The notes under the pieces were generated by a model. The model was not told where the DNA came from, searched no databases, and worked only from the letters and a program-made list of their open reading frames with translations. 57,933 nt of DNA. It comes from a virus. The DNA is taken from positions 1 to 57,933 of IMG/VR virus record IMGVR_UViG_3300028556_000002. The stretch is one strand, 5' to 3'. Positions 14,450-38,794 of the stretch are shown in pieces; position 1 is the stretch's first letter; each line of letters begins with the position of its first letter. Both the position numbers and the translations under genes were made by a program.

Positions 14450-15550
14450 TTGACTGTTTTCGGATCGGACCTCTCCAGCTTCGAGGCCGGGCTGGATCTG
14501 TCCCGCCTGGCCGACGCCTCGTTCGTCTTCGCCAAGACGACCGAGGGCACCTACTACACGGATCCGGACTACCAGGGCTGGCGGGCCCAGGCTGCGCAGC
14601 TTGGCAAGGTGTTCGCCTGGTATCACTTCCTGACCACCGAGGACGTCCATGCGCAGGTCGCGCACCTGCTGGACCACGTTGGCGACATGGGCCTACCGGG
14701 GATGCTCGATGTCGAGCCGCAGACACAGACCGGGTCCCGGCCGACGCTGGAGCAGGTGCTGGCGTTTGATGATGCTGCGCACACTGCTGGCCTGAAGCTG
14801 CGGCTGATTTACCTGCCGCAGTGGTACTGGGCCGAGCTTGGATCGCCGGACCTGACCGCCCTGGGCGCCCGCGGGCTGTACCTGGTGTCGTCGCAGTACC
14901 CGGGTGGCACCGGGAATCCGGAGGCGCTGTATCCGGGTGACTCGGCGTCCGGCTGGCAGGCCTACGGCAACGCGAAGCCACTGATCTGGCAGTACACCGA
15001 CAAGGCGAGTGACGGCGGCAAGAGCGAGGACTTCAACGCGTTCCGGGGGTCTGTGCAGCAGCTGCAGGCCTACCTCGGGACGTCCGCTTCAACAGGAGGG
15101 ACCGACGACGTGACACCCCAGGACATCCAGGCCATCGCCGCGGCGGTGTACGCCTACGGCAAGGAGGACGTGAACCTGCCGACCGGCGTGATGCACAACG
15201 TGCCGCTGGGGAACCTTGCCCACGGTGCGTGGGTGGCGCTGCTCGACCCGAAGACCGGCCTCGTGACGCTGCTGACCGACCCGCAGACCGGCGTCGCGGC
15301 CCAGCTGGCGCAGATCAAGACCGCGGTCACGCAGCAGCCGATGACGGCCTCAGCGCTGGCGCAGGCTCTCGCGCCGGTCCTGGCGCCGCTGCTGCCCGCC
15401 GCGGGCGCGGTCGACCCGGCACCGATCGCAACGGCGGCCGCGGCGGCCGTGGTGGCGGCGCTGGAGCAGCACAACTTCGCCGGCCTGGACGCGCAGCACC
15501 TGGCCGCCGCGCTGGAAGCGGAAGTCGCGACGCTGCGGGCCGGCGCATGA
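14450..15550 (+). CDS. Endolysin, GH25-type muramidase
   Basis: The product has 366 residues from a TTG start preceded by GAGGAGGG. The N-terminal 210 residues look like a GH25 lysozyme: D7 in FGSDLSSFE, FVFAKTTEG, AWYHFL, the catalytic D87-x-E89 in MLDVEPQ, LIWQYTD and DFNAFRG. It would cut the glycan backbone of host peptidoglycan. Residues 220-366 are Ala/Leu-rich and helical (VTPQDIQAIAAAVYAYG...), without a recognised wall-binding repeat. There is no signal peptide, so export depends on the holin. Two membrane proteins follow directly. Confidence 0.85.
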   Translation: MTVFGSDLSSFEAGLDLSRLADASFVFAKTTEGTYYTDPDYQGWRAQAAQLGKVFAWYHFLTTEDVHAQVAHLLDHVGDMGLPGMLDVEPQTQTGSRPTLEQVLAFDDAAHTAGLKLRLIYLPQWYWAELGSPDLTALGARGLYLVSSQYPGGTGNPEALYPGDSASGWQAYGNAKPLIWQYTDKASDGGKSEDFNAFRGSVQQLQAYLGTSASTGGTDDVTPQDIQAIAAAVYAYGKEDVNLPTGVMHNVPLGNLAHGAWVALLDPKTGLVTLLTDPQTGVAAQLAQIKTAVTQQPMTASALAQALAPVLAPLLPAAGAVDPAPIATAAAAAVVAALEQHNFAGLDAQHLAAALEAEVATLRAGA

Positions 15551-16270: not shown

Positions 16271-17022
16271 GGGCGGGGCCGCGTCTGTGGTCGGTGCTGC
16301 TGGGTCTGTTGGCGGCCTCCGCGGTCGCGCTCGGGTTGTTCCTGATGGTGAAGGTGTCGTCGGCGAGTTCGCAGCTGGATGCGCTTCGGACGCAGCAGTC
16401 GGCGCAGTCGCAGGTGATCGGCGACCTGTCGTCGGGCCTGTCGACGGCAGAGTCGCAGCTGAAGGACCACGGCATCAAGCCGCTCGCGCCGCCTCCGCAG
16501 CAGATCATCGAGAAGGGTCAGGCCGGCCCGGCCGGTGTGCAGGGCGCGCAGGGTCCTGCCGGGCTCCCCGGCCCTCCGGGGCTGTCGGGCGTGCCGGGTT
16601 CCGCAGGTCCGTCCGGGCCGTCCGGCCCGCCGGGGCCGTCCGGAGCGTCCGGCGCTCCGGGTGCGGACGGTGCCGCCGGCCCGCCGGGGCCCGCCGGCCC
16701 GCCTGGTGCGCCCGGCGCGAACGGCAGTCCCGGGCCCGCGTGCCCGACGGGCTACACGCCCCAGCCGGAGACGATCAACGGGCATCAGGCGGTGGTGTGC
16801 GAGGAGCCGCCGAGCCCGTCCTCGTCGCCGTCCGACTCGCCGCCGCTGCCCTCGGCGTCGCCGGTGGCCGTGCGTACCACGGGGCGCGTCTCTCGTGGAA
16901 GCGCGCCGGTGTTGACATCTGAAAGTTCAACACGGGTGCCGGCTCCGCCGTCCGCGCCGCGGTCCGGGCTTGTCCTGGCGCTGCTGAGCCTGGTGAAGCT
17001 GCCGCGGGACCGGTGGCTGTAG
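16267..17022 (+). CDS. Collagen-like membrane-anchored protein
   Basis: The product has 251 residues from GTG 16267. Residues 8-29 are an N-terminal membrane helix ([20 protein letters not shown]); 30-70 form a short coiled coil that could trimerise; residues 84-158 are 25 uninterrupted Gly-X-Y triplets rich in Pro. A two-cysteine segment (ACPTGYTP... VVCEE) and a Ser/Pro-rich tail follow, then a hydrophobic C-terminal segment ([13 protein letters not shown]). It is the last gene of the late operon. The triple helix would project outside the membrane. It may help lysis, alter the infected cell surface or be a virion-associated fibre. Confidence 0.75.
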
Positions 17023-17099: not shown

Positions 17100-17333
17100 C
17101 TACCGGTCCGGGATGGGCTGAACAGCCCGTTCGGTCGTCTGCACGGTGCCGGCTGGCAACGGCGTGTCGGCCACGGTGCCCCAGGTGTATGTGGGCCTGG
17201 CCGTCCCGGGCGCGTGGCTTATGAACCAGGAGGCCATGCCGATCGTGAGGCCTGCGACGGCCGCGCTGATGTAGATCGTGCGGCTGCCGGCGCCGCGCCG
17301 GCGCGCGTACCGGCCGGCTCCTCGAGCTGTCAC
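17100..17333 (-). CDS. Small membrane protein
   Basis: The product has 77 residues. The start chosen is GTG (complement of 17331-17333) because a strong GAGGGGGG ribosome site lies just upstream. A basic N-terminus (RGAGRYARRRGAGSR) is followed by one membrane helix (TIYISAAVAGLTIGMASWFI) and a polar tail, so the C-terminus is probably outside. It is transcribed leftward towards the late terminator. Function unknown; single-helix proteins in lysogeny regions are sometimes superinfection-exclusion factors. Confidence 0.6.
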   Translation of the reverse strand: MTARGAGRYARRRGAGSRTIYISAAVAGLTIGMASWFISHAPGTARPTYTWGTVADTPLPAGTVQTTERAVQPIPDR

Positions 17334-17498
17334 GAGTTCCCCCCTCGTAGCTGAGAGTACCGAGGGTACGCGGTTGCGGTGCGCGATCGGTAGCGAACGG
17401 GCATGCGGACGCCCCGCCGGGGCTTTCCCTGCACCTCGGGACGCCACCGCCGGCCCACAGTAGCCTCCCGGCGTCAGCAACGTCGGGAGGGGACTTGG

Positions 17499-17949: not shown

Positions 17950-18099
17950 CTAATTCGCCGAGTCGAACGCCGCGACCTGCGGCGGCTTTACCGTGCGCTT
18001 CGGGACGACGCGTCTGAGCGCGGCGGCGGGCACCTGGCCGAGCGGGACCGTGCGGACGTCGGTGACGGCGGCGGGGTTCTTCGTCGCGTCGGCGTTCAT
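17950..18099 (-). CDS. FxSxx-COOH (FxsA-like) RiPP precursor peptide, copy 1
   Basis: The product has 49 residues and ends AAFDSAN, i.e. Phe-x-Ser-x-x-COOH. The leader contains TDVRTVPLGQVPAAALRRV, which matches the D(L/V)R.(V)PL motif and the following Ala/Arg helix of the FxsA precursor family as I know it. In that family a radical SAM/SPASM enzyme (FxsB) cross-links the Phe ring to a nearby residue to form a cyclophane. No such enzyme is in this genome. The start is preceded by TACCGT-N6-ATG, suggesting leaderless transcription. Codon use fits its neighbours. The assignment rests on the two motifs and on the adjacent second copy. Confidence 0.75.
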   Translation of the reverse strand: MNADATKNPAAVTDVRTVPLGQVPAAALRRVVPKRTVKPPQVAAFDSAN

Positions 18100-18120
18100 G
18101 CGGCCACGGTAACGCGCGGT

Positions 18121-18276
18121 TCAGGCCGCCGACTGGAAGAACGCGGCGGGCAGCTTCCCGTCGCCCGACGTGGCGTGCCGTCCGGCATCCCGCGCCTCGC
18201 CGTCCGTGATCTCGCTGAGCGGCGTGTCGCGCAGGTCGGGCAGGTCTGTGGCGAGGTCCGTGTCCGGGGTCTCCAT
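18121..18276 (-). CDS. FxSxx-COOH (FxsA-like) RiPP precursor peptide, copy 2
   Basis: The product has 51 residues and ends AAFFQSAA, again Phe-x-Ser-x-x-COOH. The leader has LPDLRDTPLSEI, close to the FxsA leader motif and to copy 1 (TDVRTVPLGQV). It is the upstream partner of copy 1, 21 bases apart in the same direction. Its start context (TACGGTTGCCGC-ATG) is nearly identical to that of copy 1 (TACCGTGGCCGC-ATG), pointing to duplication with the promoter or start region. Outside leader and terminus the two differ strongly, so the cores would give different products if matured. Confidence 0.75.
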   Translation of the reverse strand: METPDTDLATDLPDLRDTPLSEITDGEARDAGRHATSGDGKLPAAFFQSAA

Positions 18277-18300: not shown

Positions 18301-18588
18301 TCAGAGCGCGGCCCGTGCCGCCGCGGACGCGGCCTCCTGGAGCTCGTACCGCTCCTTCTGGCTCAGGCCTTCGAGCGCCGGGTGCCTGTGGATCGCCAGC
18401 ACGAGCTGCTGCTGCTCGGCTCCCAGCGCGTCGTACTCTTCCCGGTCGGCCTCGGAGATCTCGGCCTCGCCGCCGGCGATGGCCATCGAGGACGGCATGC
18501 GGGCCGCGACGTCGGACTGGAGCTTGTCTAGCTCGTAGAAACGGCGCTTGAGCTGGATCAGGTCGGTGGGGATCTCGATGTCGGCCAC
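18301..18588 (-). CDS. Helical protein of unknown function
   Basis: The product has 95 residues from a GTG start, all helix-forming (LIQLKRRFYELDKLQSDVAARM, SEADREEYDALGAEQQQLVLAI, QKERYELQEAASAAARA). It resembles small host-type actinobacterial proteins but I cannot name a family. It lies upstream of the two FxSxx peptides in the same direction, with 24 bases to copy 2, so it may be co-transcribed. No ribosome site is obvious. Confidence 0.6.
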   Translation of the reverse strand: MADIEIPTDLIQLKRRFYELDKLQSDVAARMPSSMAIAGGEAEISEADREEYDALGAEQQQLVLAIHRHPALEGLSQKERYELQEAASAAARAAL

Positions 18589-18642: not shown

Positions 18643-18948
18643 CTACTCGCCGACGACCTCGTTCAGTTCCCGCCGGCACCAGTTCGACGCCACGGCCACC
18701 AGATACGTGTGCGGGTATGCCGAGGCGCCGATCCAGGTGGCCATCACGTCCTCGTAGCGCGGCACTTGCTCATCGCGCTCGAAGCAGTGCAGCACTTCCC
18801 ACTCGCCCATGATCATGGGGTGGGGCCAGGATCGGCAGCCGGGCCGGAGGCAGCGGCGCAGCTCGTGGTGCATGGTGAGCGGAAGCTCCGGCGGCGGGTA
18901 CGGGATCTCATCGGTGGTGAGCGTGGGGGCCGCTGCCGGGGCTCGCAT
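18643..18948 (-). CDS. Small Cys/His-containing protein
   Basis: The product has 101 residues from the ATG with AGGAGA upstream; the longer frame is not used. It contains MHHELRRCLRPGCRSWPHPM (C-x4-C with nearby His) and WEVLHCFERDE, so a structural metal is possible. The stop of the preceding leftward gene lies 8 bases upstream, which supports an operon. Function unknown. Confidence 0.6.
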   Translation of the reverse strand: MRAPAAAPTLTTDEIPYPPPELPLTMHHELRRCLRPGCRSWPHPMIMGEWEVLHCFERDEQVPRYEDVMATWIGASAYPHTYLVAVASNWCRRELNEVVGE

Positions 18949-18956
18949 GCCGTCTC

Positions 18957-19103
18957 CTAGCGCTTGGGAATCCTGCCGCTGCCGTAGCAGGTGAAGCAGT
19001 CGACCTTGCGGGTCTTGCCGTTCAGGTTCTCCTCGACCCAGCCCTTGCCGCCGCAGCCGCCGGGCGGGGGCGGGCACGGGTCGGTGTCGTCGTTCTTCGC
19101 CAT
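18957..19103 (-). CDS. Mini zinc-finger protein, DnaJ-type CxxCxGxG
   Basis: The product has 48 residues from ATG with a GGAGT site. It contains a first Cys/Gly motif (CPPPPGGCGGKG) and a second CFTCYGSG, which together resemble one zinc site of the DnaJ central domain. Four cysteines could hold one zinc. It may be a protein- or nucleic-acid-binding adaptor; such stand-alone fingers are common in actinobacterial phages and hosts. Confidence 0.6.
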   Translation of the reverse strand: MAKNDDTDPCPPPPGGCGGKGWVEENLNGKTRKVDCFTCYGSGRIPKR

Positions 19104-19135: not shown

Positions 19136-19339
19136 TCAGATGTTCGAGGTCTGTGTACGCCACCCATCGCCAGGGGGCGCGGCCGGCGCCCACCAGCATC
19201 GGGCACCGACCGCCGGCGACGGCGGGTGCTCGGCGACCGACGTCCACTGCGAGGTGCCTTGCGGCAGGTAGTAGCCGCCCGGCATCGCCAGGAGCTCGTC
19301 CCGCTCGAGCAGCTGCGGTCCGGCGGTCCGGCGCTTCAC
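19136..19339 (-). CDS. Small protein of unknown function
   Basis: The product has 67 residues. GTG start overlaps the preceding stop by 4 bases (GTGA), so it is translationally coupled. Contains ELLAMPGGYYLPQGTSQW and WWAPAAPPGDGW; no recognised family. The longer upstream frame overlaps the neighbour and is rejected. Confidence 0.55.
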   Translation of the reverse strand: MKRRTAGPQLLERDELLAMPGGYYLPQGTSQWTSVAEHPPSPAVGARCWWAPAAPPGDGWRTQTSNI

Positions 19340-19698
19340 GGCGCGTTCTCGGCCGTCAGCGGGGCGCCGTCGCGGTCGCAAGGCATGAGCGTGTCGAGGC
19401 CCGCAGTCCACTCCACGCCGCCGTCAACGGGCCGCAGGAAGGCCAGCTTGGAGCCTTCGTACAGCAGCGGCATGACCTCGCCGTGCCGTCCGGTCGCCGG
19501 GTCGACGGCGTAGCGCCTGGGCTTGCCGTTCCGTTCGTCCAGGACGCCGACGACGGTGCCGCAGTCGGGGCATTCATCGGTGGCCGGGGCGCCGGCCTCC
19601 GGGGGGTGCTGAAGCATCTTCCTGATCCGTTCGTCGCACGATTCGCACCCTGTCACGGATCCACGCTGCCCCAGGCGAACCATGGCGACCAGTGCCAC
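19336..19698 (-). CDS. Zinc-ribbon protein, first gene of leftward operon
   Basis: The frame allows 120 residues from GTG 19698; ATG 19683 or GTG 19653 could also be the start. Two CxxC pairs (GCESCDERI and ECPDCGTVVGVLD) would hold one zinc; the C-terminal half (RYAVDPATGRHGEVMPLLYEG) is a small strand-rich domain. It faces the HTH/TPR regulator across a 57-base divergent spacer that holds two direct operator-like repeats, so the regulator may control this operon, including the FxSxx peptides. Confidence 0.6.
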   Translation of the reverse strand: MALVAMVRLGQRGSVTGCESCDERIRKMLQHPPEAGAPATDECPDCGTVVGVLDERNGKPRRYAVDPATGRHGEVMPLLYEGSKLAFLRPVDGGVEWTAGLDTLMPCDRDGAPLTAENAP

Positions 19699-19755: not shown

Positions 19756-21222
19756 ATGCCCCGCACCGCCGCACCCGACCATCTCCCCGCGCAGATCCGC
19801 GACGACCCACGCGTGGTCCGGGCGTGCCGGGATCGCAACCTCGGCAGCATCCTGCGACTGGCCCAGCAGCTCAGCGAGGGAGCCTTCACCAACAGCCACC
19901 TCGCGCGGCGCTGCGGGCTGTCGCCGTCGCGGGTCGCCGAGTACATGACCGGCTCCCGGCTGGCCCAGCGGACGGAGATCTTCGAGCGCGTCGCAGACGG
20001 CCTGCACATCCCGGGTGCGCGGTTCGGACTGCCGGCGCGCGAGTGGGAGGCCGGCTACGCGCGGAGCGGCACCGTGGTCCTGGCGCGCGAGGCCCCTCCC
20101 GGGGTGCCCGGTACCGTCGCGGTCGAGCTGCCGCGTAGCCTGACGTACGCGTCGTCCGTGACGGCCACCCTGAACACCGTCACCGACCTGGGGAGAGCTG
20201 ACGTGCAACGCCGCTCCGTCCTGGCCACCGCCGCCTACACCCTGCCGGCCCTGGCGGTCGCGAGTCGGGACTGGCTGTTGTCGACGCTGGAGGCGATCGA
20301 GGGCGGCCGCGGCCGCCGCGTCGGCGAGGAGGACCTGGCGGCGATCCGCGAGGCGTTCGCGGCTTTCCAGGAGGCCGACGTCATCGGCGGTGGCGGGGAC
20401 GACGTCCGGCGGGCGGTCGCGGCGTACCTGACGGACTACGTGATGCCGATCGTGCGCGAGCCCCAGGCCGCGGGGATCCAGGAGGCGCTGTACGAGGTCG
20501 CCGCCGAGCAGACGTACCTGGCCGGATGGCTGGCTTTTGACGGCGGCGAGCACGCCCTGGCCGAGCGGTACCTGATTCAGTCGCTCCGACTCGCGCAGGC
20601 CTCGGGGAACGCGGTGCTGGGCGCGCACGTCCTGGCCGGTCTGTCGGACCAGGCGACGCAGCTCGGGCACCCGGCCGAAGGCCGGTCTCTGGCGCAGGCC
20701 GGGCGGCACGGGCTGCGCGGCTGGCATGCGCCGGCGGCGATGTGCGACCTGTACGTGCTGGAGGCTCGCGCGCACGCCGCGCTCGGGTCGGCGATGGCCG
20801 CGGTCCGCGCAATCGACGCCGCGGAGACCTGGTACGACCGGATCAACGTCGAGTCCGAAGCCGAGTGGGCCCGGTACATCGACGAGGGCTACGTCGCCGG
20901 GGAGATCGCGAACAGCCTGCGGGACCTGGCAGACTCCGACGCCAGCGAGCGGTTCGCCTCGCAGTCGATCGCGGCGTGCCGGGTGCAGGGCCGGGCGCGT
21001 CGAGCGTCGCTGTCGTACGCGGCGATGGCCGGGGCGCGTCTGCACGCGGGGGACGTAGACGGCGCTGCGGAGGCTGCACAGCGGTCGTTGGGACTCGCCG
21101 AGGGCGTTCCATCGATCCGATGCACGGCGGCCCTCCAGGGGCTCTCTGACGGGTTCGCGCCGCACGGCGGGCACGCGGCGGTTGCCGACTTCGTCGGGGC
21201 CCTGGCCGTCGCAGGGCGCTGA
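19756..21222 (+). CDS. HTH-TPR transcriptional regulator (Streptomyces type)
   Basis: The product has 488 residues from ATG with GGGAGG. Residues 25-80 carry a helix-turn-helix (LAQQLSEGAFTNSHLARRCGLSPSRVAEYMTG). Residues 150-488 are helical repeats of TPR type (EQTYLAGWLAFDGGEHALAE, QASGNAVLGAHVLAGLSDQA, RDLADSDASERFASQS). This fusion is common in Streptomyces chromosomes as developmental or metabolite regulators and looks host-derived. It is divergent from the leftward accessory operon. The TPR part may sense a peptide or protein partner. Confidence 0.75.
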   Translation: MPRTAAPDHLPAQIRDDPRVVRACRDRNLGSILRLAQQLSEGAFTNSHLARRCGLSPSRVAEYMTGSRLAQRTEIFERVADGLHIPGARFGLPAREWEAGYARSGTVVLAREAPPGVPGTVAVELPRSLTYASSVTATLNTVTDLGRADVQRRSVLATAAYTLPALAVASRDWLLSTLEAIEGGRGRRVGEEDLAAIREAFAAFQEADVIGGGGDDVRRAVAAYLTDYVMPIVREPQAAGIQEALYEVAAEQTYLAGWLAFDGGEHALAERYLIQSLRLAQASGNAVLGAHVLAGLSDQATQLGHPAEGRSLAQAGRHGLRGWHAPAAMCDLYVLEARAHAALGSAMAAVRAIDAAETWYDRINVESEAEWARYIDEGYVAGEIANSLRDLADSDASERFASQSIAACRVQGRARRASLSYAAMAGARLHAGDVDGAAEAAQRSLGLAEGVPSIRCTAALQGLSDGFAPHGGHAAVADFVGALAVAGR

Positions 21223-21287: not shown

Positions 21288-21316
21288 GAGTGGTCAAGGA
21301 CGCGTACAGTACCCAC

Positions 21317-22792
21317 ATGGTGGGATCCCACAAGCACCCGGTCAAAGCGGTGATCTACTGCCGGATGTCCCTGGCCCGGCACGGCGACACGGTGAAGGTG
21401 AAGCGGCAGGAGAAGCTCTGCCGCCAGCTCGCAGAGCGGCTCGGCTGGGAGGTTGTGTTCGTCTTCTGCGACAACAACCAGTCCGCCTGGCAGAGGAACC
21501 GGAAGCGGCCCGGCTGGGACGAGATGCTTCGCTGGCTTCAGGACGGCCGCGCGAACGCCGTGATCTTCTACCACGGCGACCGGCTGATCCGGCAGCCGTG
21601 GGATCTGGAGGTGCTGCTGAGCCTGTCTGACGGCCGCGGTATCAAGCTGGCGTCCCCCAGCAGCATCCGGAATCTGGACGACCCCGAGGACCGCTACCGG
21701 CTGCGGCAGGACGTCGCGAAGGCGTGCGCCGAGTCGGACACTATCGGCCGGCGCGTGACGGTGATCCATGAGGAGCGGGCACGCAAGGGGAAGATCCACC
21801 GGGGCGGCCCGCGAATGTTCGGCTACAAGCGCTCCGGGAAGATCGTCGAGGCTGAGGCGCAGGAGTACCGGGCTGCGGTGGGCCGGCTGCTCGCCGGGGA
21901 GTCGCGCACCTCGGTGCTGCGGGACTGGAACCAGCGCGGCGTGCTCACGACGCAGGGGAACCAGTGGGGGTACACGGCGTTCTCGCGGATGCTGGGCCGC
22001 GCGCGGTACGCGGGCCTGCGGTCCTACCACGGGGAGGTCGTCGCGACGGGCAAGTGGACCGGGCTGATCGGTGTCGAGGAGTGGGAGGCGCTGCAGACCG
22101 TTCTGGCAGTCGGGTCGGCGCTGTACACGCACGGGGCCGGGGCGCGCCCTGCCTCGTCGAAGTACCTGCTGCCGGGGATTGCCGTGCATGCGGCGTGCGG
22201 CGCGACGGTGAAGGCCCACCTGGACACGCGGCCGGACCAGACGGCGTACGTGTGCCGGAACCCGACGTGCACGCAGGCAATGCGCCGGAAGATGTCGCAC
22301 GTCGACGCCTACGTCGTCGGCCGGGTGCTGCACCTGCTGGCGGATCCGGCGCTGTGGGAGCGGCTGGAGTCGCGCCGCGGTGATGACGGCCTGGGCGCGC
22401 AGCTGATAGCGCTGGTGGAGCGCCGGCAGGCGACGGTCGACCAGTTCGCGACCTCGACGACGATGATGCCGGCCACGCTGGACGCGGTGTTGCGGCAGAT
22501 GGACGAGCAAGCGGGGCAGATCCGGGCGCAGATCGCGCAGCGGCAGGCCGTGCACGCGCTGGACGGCTGCCGGGACATGACGCGGGCGGAGTGGGACGAG
22601 CTGCCGACGAACCGGCGCCGAGCGATCATACGGGGCCTGGTGAAGGTGGAGATGTTGCCGGCGCGCCGCGGCCGCGGATTCGATTCGGAGTCGGTGCGGG
22701 TGACCCGGTTGAACGCGGACGCCGCCGCGGGGAAGGGCGACAGCGGCGGGTTGGAGCTGGTGGCGTCTGTAGGCGGTCCCGCCCCCGAGTAG
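21317..22792 (+). CDS. int: Large serine integrase
   Basis: The product has 491 residues from ATG 21317 (a GTG at 21290 is also possible). The catalytic domain begins VKAVIYCRMSLARHGD, with nucleophile Ser18 in the Y-x-R-x-S motif; R and D residues of the resolvase fold follow (VIFYHGDRLIRQPWDLE). A recombinase domain (RGGPRMFGYKR... SVLRDWNQRGVLT), a zinc-ribbon-like region and a coiled-coil C-terminus follow. The zinc ribbon is atypical: the usual CxxC is HAAC, paired with VCRNPTC. It would insert the phage at a host attB. TACAGT-N6-ATG upstream suggests a leaderless promoter. Its presence makes the phage temperate. Confidence 0.9.
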   Translation: MVGSHKHPVKAVIYCRMSLARHGDTVKVKRQEKLCRQLAERLGWEVVFVFCDNNQSAWQRNRKRPGWDEMLRWLQDGRANAVIFYHGDRLIRQPWDLEVLLSLSDGRGIKLASPSSIRNLDDPEDRYRLRQDVAKACAESDTIGRRVTVIHEERARKGKIHRGGPRMFGYKRSGKIVEAEAQEYRAAVGRLLAGESRTSVLRDWNQRGVLTTQGNQWGYTAFSRMLGRARYAGLRSYHGEVVATGKWTGLIGVEEWEALQTVLAVGSALYTHGAGARPASSKYLLPGIAVHAACGATVKAHLDTRPDQTAYVCRNPTCTQAMRRKMSHVDAYVVGRVLHLLADPALWERLESRRGDDGLGAQLIALVERRQATVDQFATSTTMMPATLDAVLRQMDEQAGQIRAQIAQRQAVHALDGCRDMTRAEWDELPTNRRRAIIRGLVKVEMLPARRGRGFDSESVRVTRLNADAAAGKGDSGGLELVASVGGPAPE

Positions 22793-37820: not shown

Positions 37821-38794
37821 GCGAGGACGCCAGCGCGACGGTACGACTCAGTGACCTGACGGTCAGGTACCCCGAAGACGGTGGAACCCCGGTCTCCTGG
37901 GGGCTCTTCCGCGAGGTCATCGATCCCGAAGTGGTTGCCCATCTCACCATTCCTGGCGAGCCGGTCTCGAAGGCACGTGCTCGGTTCACCAAACAGGGCA
38001 GCAAGATTCGCACCTTCACCCCGGAGAAGACGCGCACCGCCGAGGAGACTGTCGCCACCCACTTCCGCCGCGCCCAGCCCGGCTGGAAGACGCCGACTGA
38101 GGGCGACTTCGGCGTGATCGCCGTCTTCTTCTGCCACACCTTTCAGCGGCGCGACGTCGACAACATGCTCAAGCTCGTCCTTGACGCCTGCAACAAGGTG
38201 GTCTGGCTCGACGACGCCCAGGTCACCGAGGTCAGCGGGCGTGTCGTTCGGGGCGTTCCCGAGGCCCGCTCTGAGATCGCCATCTACCGGACGTGGGGGG
38301 ACGGGCGCCCCGAGCGGGCGTGCAAGCACTGCGGTAAGAGGTTTCGCATCTACAGCTCCACGCAGGGACGCAACCAGCGGTTCTGCAGCAGGGACTGTAG
38401 CTACGTCAGCCGGCGGGCAAAGCGGTGCAAGACCTGCCCCGTGTGCCAGACCGAGTTCCATCCCCAGCCGGGCAAGCCACTCGAGCACTGCTCGCGCGAG
38501 TGCTACTCGGCCTCCCGGAACGTCCAGGTTTCCTGCGTCGAGTGCGGTAGCGAGTTCACCAAGCCGCAATCGCTCGTCAAGCGCGGCAACGCCTACTGCA
38601 GCGACGCGTGTAAGGCAGCGTTCTGGCGGAAGCAGCGCGCCAAGAGCGCCAGTGGGACGTGCTTGGTCTGCCAGGGACCCACCAGCAAGAAGACGTACAT
38701 GCGCTGCAACGCGTGCATGCGGGTTGGCCTGGCGAGCCCTGCCGAGGTCTTGCTCTCCGTTGAGCCCCTGGCCAGCGAGAAGAGCGATTCATGA
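37817..38794 (+). CDS. rusA: RusA-type Holliday junction resolvase fused to zinc-finger array
   Basis: The product has 325 residues, more than twice the usual RusA length. Residues 40-170 are RusA-like: LTIPGEPVSKARARFTKQG and the catalytic segment RRDVDNMLKLVLDACNKVVW, LDDAQVTEVSG. Residues 170-305 hold about four successive Cys pairs of FCS/MYM-like fingers (CKHCGKRF...FCSRDCS, CPVCQTEF...CSRECY, CVECGSEF...YCSDACK, CLVCQGP...CNACM). RusA cuts four-way junctions during late replication or packaging; the fingers may add DNA or protein binding. Confidence 0.8.
   Translation: MSEDASATVRLSDLTVRYPEDGGTPVSWGLFREVIDPEVVAHLTIPGEPVSKARARFTKQGSKIRTFTPEKTRTAEETVATHFRRAQPGWKTPTEGDFGVIAVFFCHTFQRRDVDNMLKLVLDACNKVVWLDDAQVTEVSGRVVRGVPEARSEIAIYRTWGDGRPERACKHCGKRFRIYSSTQGRNQRFCSRDCSYVSRRAKRCKTCPVCQTEFHPQPGKPLEHCSRECYSASRNVQVSCVECGSEFTKPQSLVKRGNAYCSDACKAAFWRKQRAKSASGTCLVCQGPTSKKTYMRCNACMRVGLASPAEVLLSVEPLASEKSDS

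Follow-up and report, generated by a model that had tools for sequence, protein, structure and literature searches.

Phages carry genes for FxSxx-COOH (FxsA-like) precursor peptides without the radical SAM enzyme FxsB, and these orphan precursors form a real, recurrent and, to our knowledge, previously undescribed class; no mention of FxSxx precursors in phages was found in the literature searched, in which the coverage of subscription papers was small. The window, meaning the whole virus record of 57,933 bases that was analysed here (GC content of 71%), encodes two such peptides side by side. It also encodes a tape measure protein, tail proteins, a GH25 endolysin, a serine integrase, RecE/RecT, a RusA/HNH protein and a large terminase. 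Judging from this gene content, it is a temperate actinophage, temperate since it has a large serine integrase (21290..22792, plus strand; PHROG 95 integrase, Pfam Resolvase and Recombinase).

The two precursor genes are the last of a run of some six small leftward genes, extending from 19698 to 17950 and opposed to the otherwise rightward genes of the window. Precursor peptide 1 (49 aa, MNADATKNPAAVTDVRTVPLGQVPAAALRRVVPKRTVKPPQVAAFDSAN) is encoded at 17950..18099 and precursor peptide 2 (51 aa, METPDTDLATDLPDLRDTPLSEITDGEARDAGRHATSGDGKLPAAFFQSAA) at 18121..18276, both on the minus strand. Upstream in the same run and on the same strand, gene calls placed a 95-aa protein (18301..18588) with no significant family in Pfam, NCBIfam or PHROG, a 101-aa protein (18643..18948) without a match in PHROG or PADLOC and, with a ribosome-binding site, a Cys-rich protein of 48 aa (18957..19103) without a PHROG family. 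The head of the run (19336..19698, minus strand), found in the ORF list and by gene calling, encodes at most 120 aa (93 aa from an inner ATG) with zinc-ribbon-like cysteines, for which Zn-ribbon scores were only weak. It is divergent from the gene of an HTH-TPR regulator of the NsdA family (19756..21222, plus strand; NF053720 with 298 bits, PHROG 10886), which is a candidate controller of the leftward operon and which shares 44-46% identity with its counterparts in SV1-group Streptomyces phages. In its TPR half, the identity to the SV1 group is about 50%, and its N-terminal DNA-binding (HTH) part is different, as in a module exchange. Ahead of the precursor genes lies a lysis cassette that starts with the GH25 endolysin gene (14450..15550, plus strand; PHROG 3084 endolysin, Pfam Glyco_hydro_25).

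Several other features of the window were recorded. A protein with collagen-like Gly-X-Y repeats is encoded after the lysis cassette (16287-17022), and a tRNA-Gly call at 16524-16623 was taken as spurious since it lies inside this Gly-Pro-rich region. The product of 37931-38794 has a RusA-like resolvase part at its N-terminus and an HNH part at its C-terminus. A stretch of 28 bases (CACGAGTTCCCCCCTCGTAGCTGAGAGT) is identical in positions 17330-17370 of the window and in L325:718-804, in surrounding DNA that is about 70% identical; it sits just upstream of leftward ORFs with a GTG start and is perhaps a promoter with a ribosome-binding site. Around the precursor genes, a promoter and terminator scan gave nothing useful and an Rfam search gave no match, and no relatives were found using the integrase and the 95-aa neighbour as baits.

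The coordinates, lengths, C-terminal ends and leader motif of the two ORFs were all as described in the initial annotation. Peptide 1 ends in VAAFDSAN, followed by a TAG stop, and peptide 2 in PAAFFQSAA, followed by a stop, with an exact FxSxx at the very end of both; their leader motifs are DVRTVPLGQV and DLRDTPLSEI. The GC3 values of the two ORFs (0.94 and 0.92) correspond to a coding-type composition. As a baseline for chance, high-GC actinobacterial loci totalling 1.53 Mb contained 22 FxSxx-ending ORFs of 30-120 aa, none of them resembling the family, so that two adjacent leader-bearing ORFs of this kind are not a chance occurrence. Similarly, none of the 18 matches of an FxT control pattern had a family leader. 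The possibility that the C-terminus is an ssrA-like degradation tag was rejected, because family members end in SSI, SSV, SAL and similar residues and because the leader is conserved.

That both peptides belong to the FxSxx-COOH family, as had been proposed from the letters alone, was verified against the curated NCBIfam model (TIGR04268, cut-off of 28 bits) for peptide 1 and by homology tests for peptide 2. Peptide 1 scored 28.5 bits (E 1.3e-6) as a whole protein and 24.0 bits in a six-frame search of the record, so that its membership is borderline, and peptide 2, which is divergent with PAAFF in place of VAAF, stayed below the cut-off with 14.4 bits (E 0.035). An HMM that we built from other family members, leaving out the window peptides, gave 37.7 bits (E 6e-9) for peptide 1 and 19.7 bits (E 0.0025) for peptide 2 among 49,152 ORFs, and a larger family HMM detected peptide 2 with an E of 8e-7. 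A leader-only HMM, made from seven host FxsB-linked precursors of which the last 8 residues were cut off, gave 21.3 bits for peptide 1 and 23.3 bits for peptide 2, compared to at most 0.7 for VAAFxTxx control ORFs, which indicates that the leader is conserved independently of the C-terminal motif. By homology, both peptides are true FxsA relatives, leader included, peptide 2 being one outside the curated membership.

Close relatives of either peptide were not found in phages, plasmids or IMG/VR by single-query searches, and a concatenated tblastn search stayed blank even at E 10, which is weak evidence of absence since its sensitivity is low for short Ala/Pro-rich queries. DNA patterns describing the C-terminus found relatives where tblastn had failed.

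The models describing the host system are TIGR04269 (FxsB), NF040588/TIGR04276 (FxsC) and NF040586 (FxsT). In the window, neither TIGR04269 nor an HMM that we built from FxsB gave a match, confirming that the precursors are orphans as far as this radical SAM maturase is concerned, and TIGR04276 and NF040586 gave none either, with the positive-control genome G309 being detected. On host chromosomes, the anticipated tie of the family to FxsB, FxsC and FxsT was borne out. TIGR04268 had a match in 64 of 148 Streptomycetales genomes and, as tallied from the hit table, all 38 distinct chromosomal hits visibly ending in FxSxx had FxsB within 6 kb. A DNA pattern search for VAAFxSxx followed by a stop, which is independent of FxsB, found six places in 395 actinobacterial genomes, all six beside FxsB and most also with FxsC and FxsT, and ten further leader-bearing genes in 392 Streptomycetales genomes, nine of them no more than about 1.5 kb from FxsB. 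The remaining one, in genome G555, lies in a cluster with TIR-like, FxsC-like and FxsT-like genes of its own (the FxsC and FxsT labels rest on resemblance and not on a model search) and without FxsB. About 15 kb away is a complete Fxs cluster with FxsB, the two neighbouring clusters occupying G555:C113:44154-69024 (L369, L371). This arrangement suggests that FxsB may be shared in trans between the two clusters and appears to be a precedent, on the host side, for the maturation of a precursor in trans.

The window phage is not a one-phage curiosity, since about 25 phage lineages have orphan precursors and FxsB accompanies none of them. Leader-bearing FxSxx precursors were identified by pattern scans of IMG/VR in 29 records other than the window, which represent about 24 lineages; most of the viral records are 39-202 kb in size and several are short fragments. 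FxsB was absent from all 30 viral records including the window (TIGR04269), an absence that means little for the short fragments, and FxsC (TIGR04276) and FxsT (NF040586) were absent from the 15 and 20 viral records searched, respectively. Since the scans required VAAFxSxx with GC-rich codons, core conservation among the collected precursors is in part a product of the search; this bias does not affect the leader result, and the VAAFxSxx pattern would have missed peptide 2. Among the other carrier records, phage hallmark genes were confirmed in those checked for them, in the record or beside the precursor: a portal and a large terminase around L225/L237, a terminase and a portal at L238, a portal at L235 and at L313, an endolysin at L224 and at L226, a portal and an endolysin in G527 and a terminase and an endolysin in L329/G535. 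For the rest, the phage status is that of the IMG/VR classification.

Other genes were also seen near FxSxx genes of phages. A vWA-like protein with a DASGS motif adjoins the gene in two cases (L229:8531-9667 and L233:8560-9696); vWA proteins are core parts of host VMAP conflict systems too. RNA-binding genes of PHROG 850, which we take to be Ro60-like, are found nearby in two different phages (L255:1040-2710 and L313:7419-9050).

The C-terminal FxSxx is kept in a diverged relative of the window phage (G533/G535), with which the window has several early genes in common as well as the endolysin (48%, at a matching place) and the collagen-like region, the latter with a DNA identity of 74%. In G533, a leftward precursor gene (MDPQQPVDGIATEMPDVRTIPLGRLAATKRSALRRVLPDGSAPKPPVAAFDSAM) lies at the matching place beside the lysis cassette, and its product is 57.9% identical to peptide 1 over 38 aa; the G535 record stops inside the counterpart of this gene. 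Thus, neither of the two outcomes that the initial annotation had named as speaking against its proposal, namely no match to the FxsA models and no conservation of the motif in related phages, was what we found. Tandem arrays exist in three lineages, with two precursors in the window, three in G527 and two in G530/G534. In the G527 array (G527:34530-35068, L342), the third of three successive precursors ends in FNASL, with an Ala at the expected cross-link Ser. The peptides nearest to those of the window are other phage peptides and host precursors of the FxsABCT type, and several phage leaders closely resemble host ones: L188 and the host precursor L350 are identical at 37 of 57 positions, L256 and the precursor of the complete G555 cluster at 29 of 47, and L185 and the host L365 at 19 of 28. 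Repeated capture, followed by divergence, would fit these resemblances best.

Two phages carry the precursor gene in a context of late genes: it has a four-base overlap with the portal gene in L225 and directly precedes the large terminase gene in L238, so that the precursor is probably made during lytic growth in both. More generally, in several phages the gene adjoins one for a portal, a terminase or an endolysin, so that the peptide is probably made during infection. Several carry it within operons for the head or for packaging, which makes it unlikely that such peptides generally act in lysogens alone.

Compared to FxsA peptides (TIGR04268), the window pair is alike in its length, its DxRxxPL... 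leader, its alanine-rich core and its C-terminal Phe-x-Ser-x-x, but it is carried by a phage, consists of two divergent tandem copies and comes without FxsB, FxsC or FxsT in the same genome. On chromosomes, the phage peptides have their closest relatives in the precursors of standalone FxsABCT systems of Streptomyces and relatives (L258-L263, L350 and G555), from which the phages differ in having the precursor only. Proteins of these FxsABCT systems matched no FxsABCT-specific model in PADLOC. FxSxx peptides have been placed in conflict systems with TIR/AP-ATPase effectors, with a proposed role as toxin or signal (Kaur et al. 2020, PMC7159879), and the radical SAM/SPASM-type enzyme MscB forms a three-residue cyclophane, or triceptide, by joining a Phe and a Ser (PMC11002830). 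The Phe-x-Ser core of the window peptides has the substrate geometry described for MscB (PMC11002830), but the window encodes no maturase.

We consider it likely, with good support from the sequences, that the phage peptides are substrates or binding partners of the host's FxsB. The phage keeps a leader and a core of the host type and would leave the modification to the host radical SAM enzyme, its peptide competing with the resident FxsA for FxsB. Once matured, it may bind FxsC (TIR-like) or FxsT (a STAND/TPR ATPase) without triggering it, or hold the effector off, so that the phage peptides would act as substrate and product mimics that jam or retune a suspected FxsA-FxsB-FxsC-FxsT conflict system of the host. 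This complete reading, in which we infer the modification by FxsB, the binding to FxsC/FxsT and the inhibitory sign, is put forward tentatively, at slightly less than an even chance; the divergence of peptide 2 and its score under the curated cut-off were counted against it. The leader is the part that an FxsB-type enzyme should need, and its retention disfavours pure C-terminal mimicry, since such a mimic would need no leader. A broader version, in which actinophages have repeatedly acquired leader-bearing decoys for the host maturase, diversified them, in some cases into tandem banks, and disarm or reprogram TIR/STAND immunity with a cross-linked peptide ligand, is judged slightly less probable. 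Phages are known to carry mimics of components of host defence or toxin-antitoxin systems and, as in those cases, a look-alike of the small part that gives specificity would be carried and the effector left out; unlike those, the mimic would here be the substrate of a host radical SAM maturase, of which we know of no described case.

The same use of FxsB in trans could also serve the opposite end if peptides matured by host FxsB boosted the host Fxs system or added a specificity to it, protecting the lysogen against other phages (superinfection exclusion). The window genes run leftward, opposite to the lytic genes and between the lysis cassette on one side and the NsdA-type regulator and serine integrase on the other, which is a usual place for lysogeny-expressed genes and, according to a proposal of Kaur et al. 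(PMC7159879), processing yields a peptide that amplifies the core system. Being next to the integrase, the leftward operon of the window might just as well be active in lysogens and benefit the host. However, the gene lies in packaging operons in L225 and L238, and a lytically growing phage would harm itself by setting off a conflict system of its host, so that we regard such a protective role as unlikely.

Slightly less probable still is that the peptides act unmodified, plugging FxsB or blocking recognition by FxsC/FxsT without ever needing the cross-link. The lack of a maturase in every carrier record and the Ala that replaces the cross-link Ser in the third G527 peptide are consistent with it, but nearly all phage copies, that of G533 among them, retain the core Phe and Ser, even if this was partly demanded by the search pattern.

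Signalling of the arbitrium (RRNPP) type, with the matured peptide read by the HTH-TPR regulator of the phage itself (19756-21222) and setting the choice between lysis and lysogeny, appears improbable. The regulator gene does adjoin the precursor operon divergently, and in phage G158 (L187) a PHROG 10886 regulator is likewise encoded less than 2 kb from the precursor, but this pairing is not conserved: SV1-group phages have the regulator without an FxSxx gene nearby, no FxSxx family gene was seen at 80 chromosomal loci that encode related regulators, and most FxSxx phages have no such regulator near the gene. Finally, chance ORFs or functionless, passively captured host genes, which the shortness of the genes and the sub-threshold score of peptide 2 might evoke, are hardly credible given the leader homology, the conservation at a matching place in a diverged phage, the roughly 25 lineages and the tandem expansion, all without an adjacent FxsB, which would often come along in a passive capture.

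To come back to interference with the host Fxs system, about two dozen other virus lineages also carry a precursor without the modifying enzyme, which suggests that imitation peptides are supplied by viruses to what is suspected to be a defence system of the host. That FxsA-type peptides serve as toxin or signal in a conflict system has so far been a proposal only, and precursor-only phages from many lineages, sometimes with the gene in late operons, bring independent evidence for a role of FxSxx peptides in phage-host conflict. The phage precursors are natural ligand variants matched to recognisable host subtypes, and as such ready tools for testing what the peptide does. If they are matured by host FxsB, they would represent a class of phage gene product that is completed by a host radical SAM enzyme and, if they are indeed decoys, this would be counter-defence through the hijacking of the host's own RiPP enzyme.
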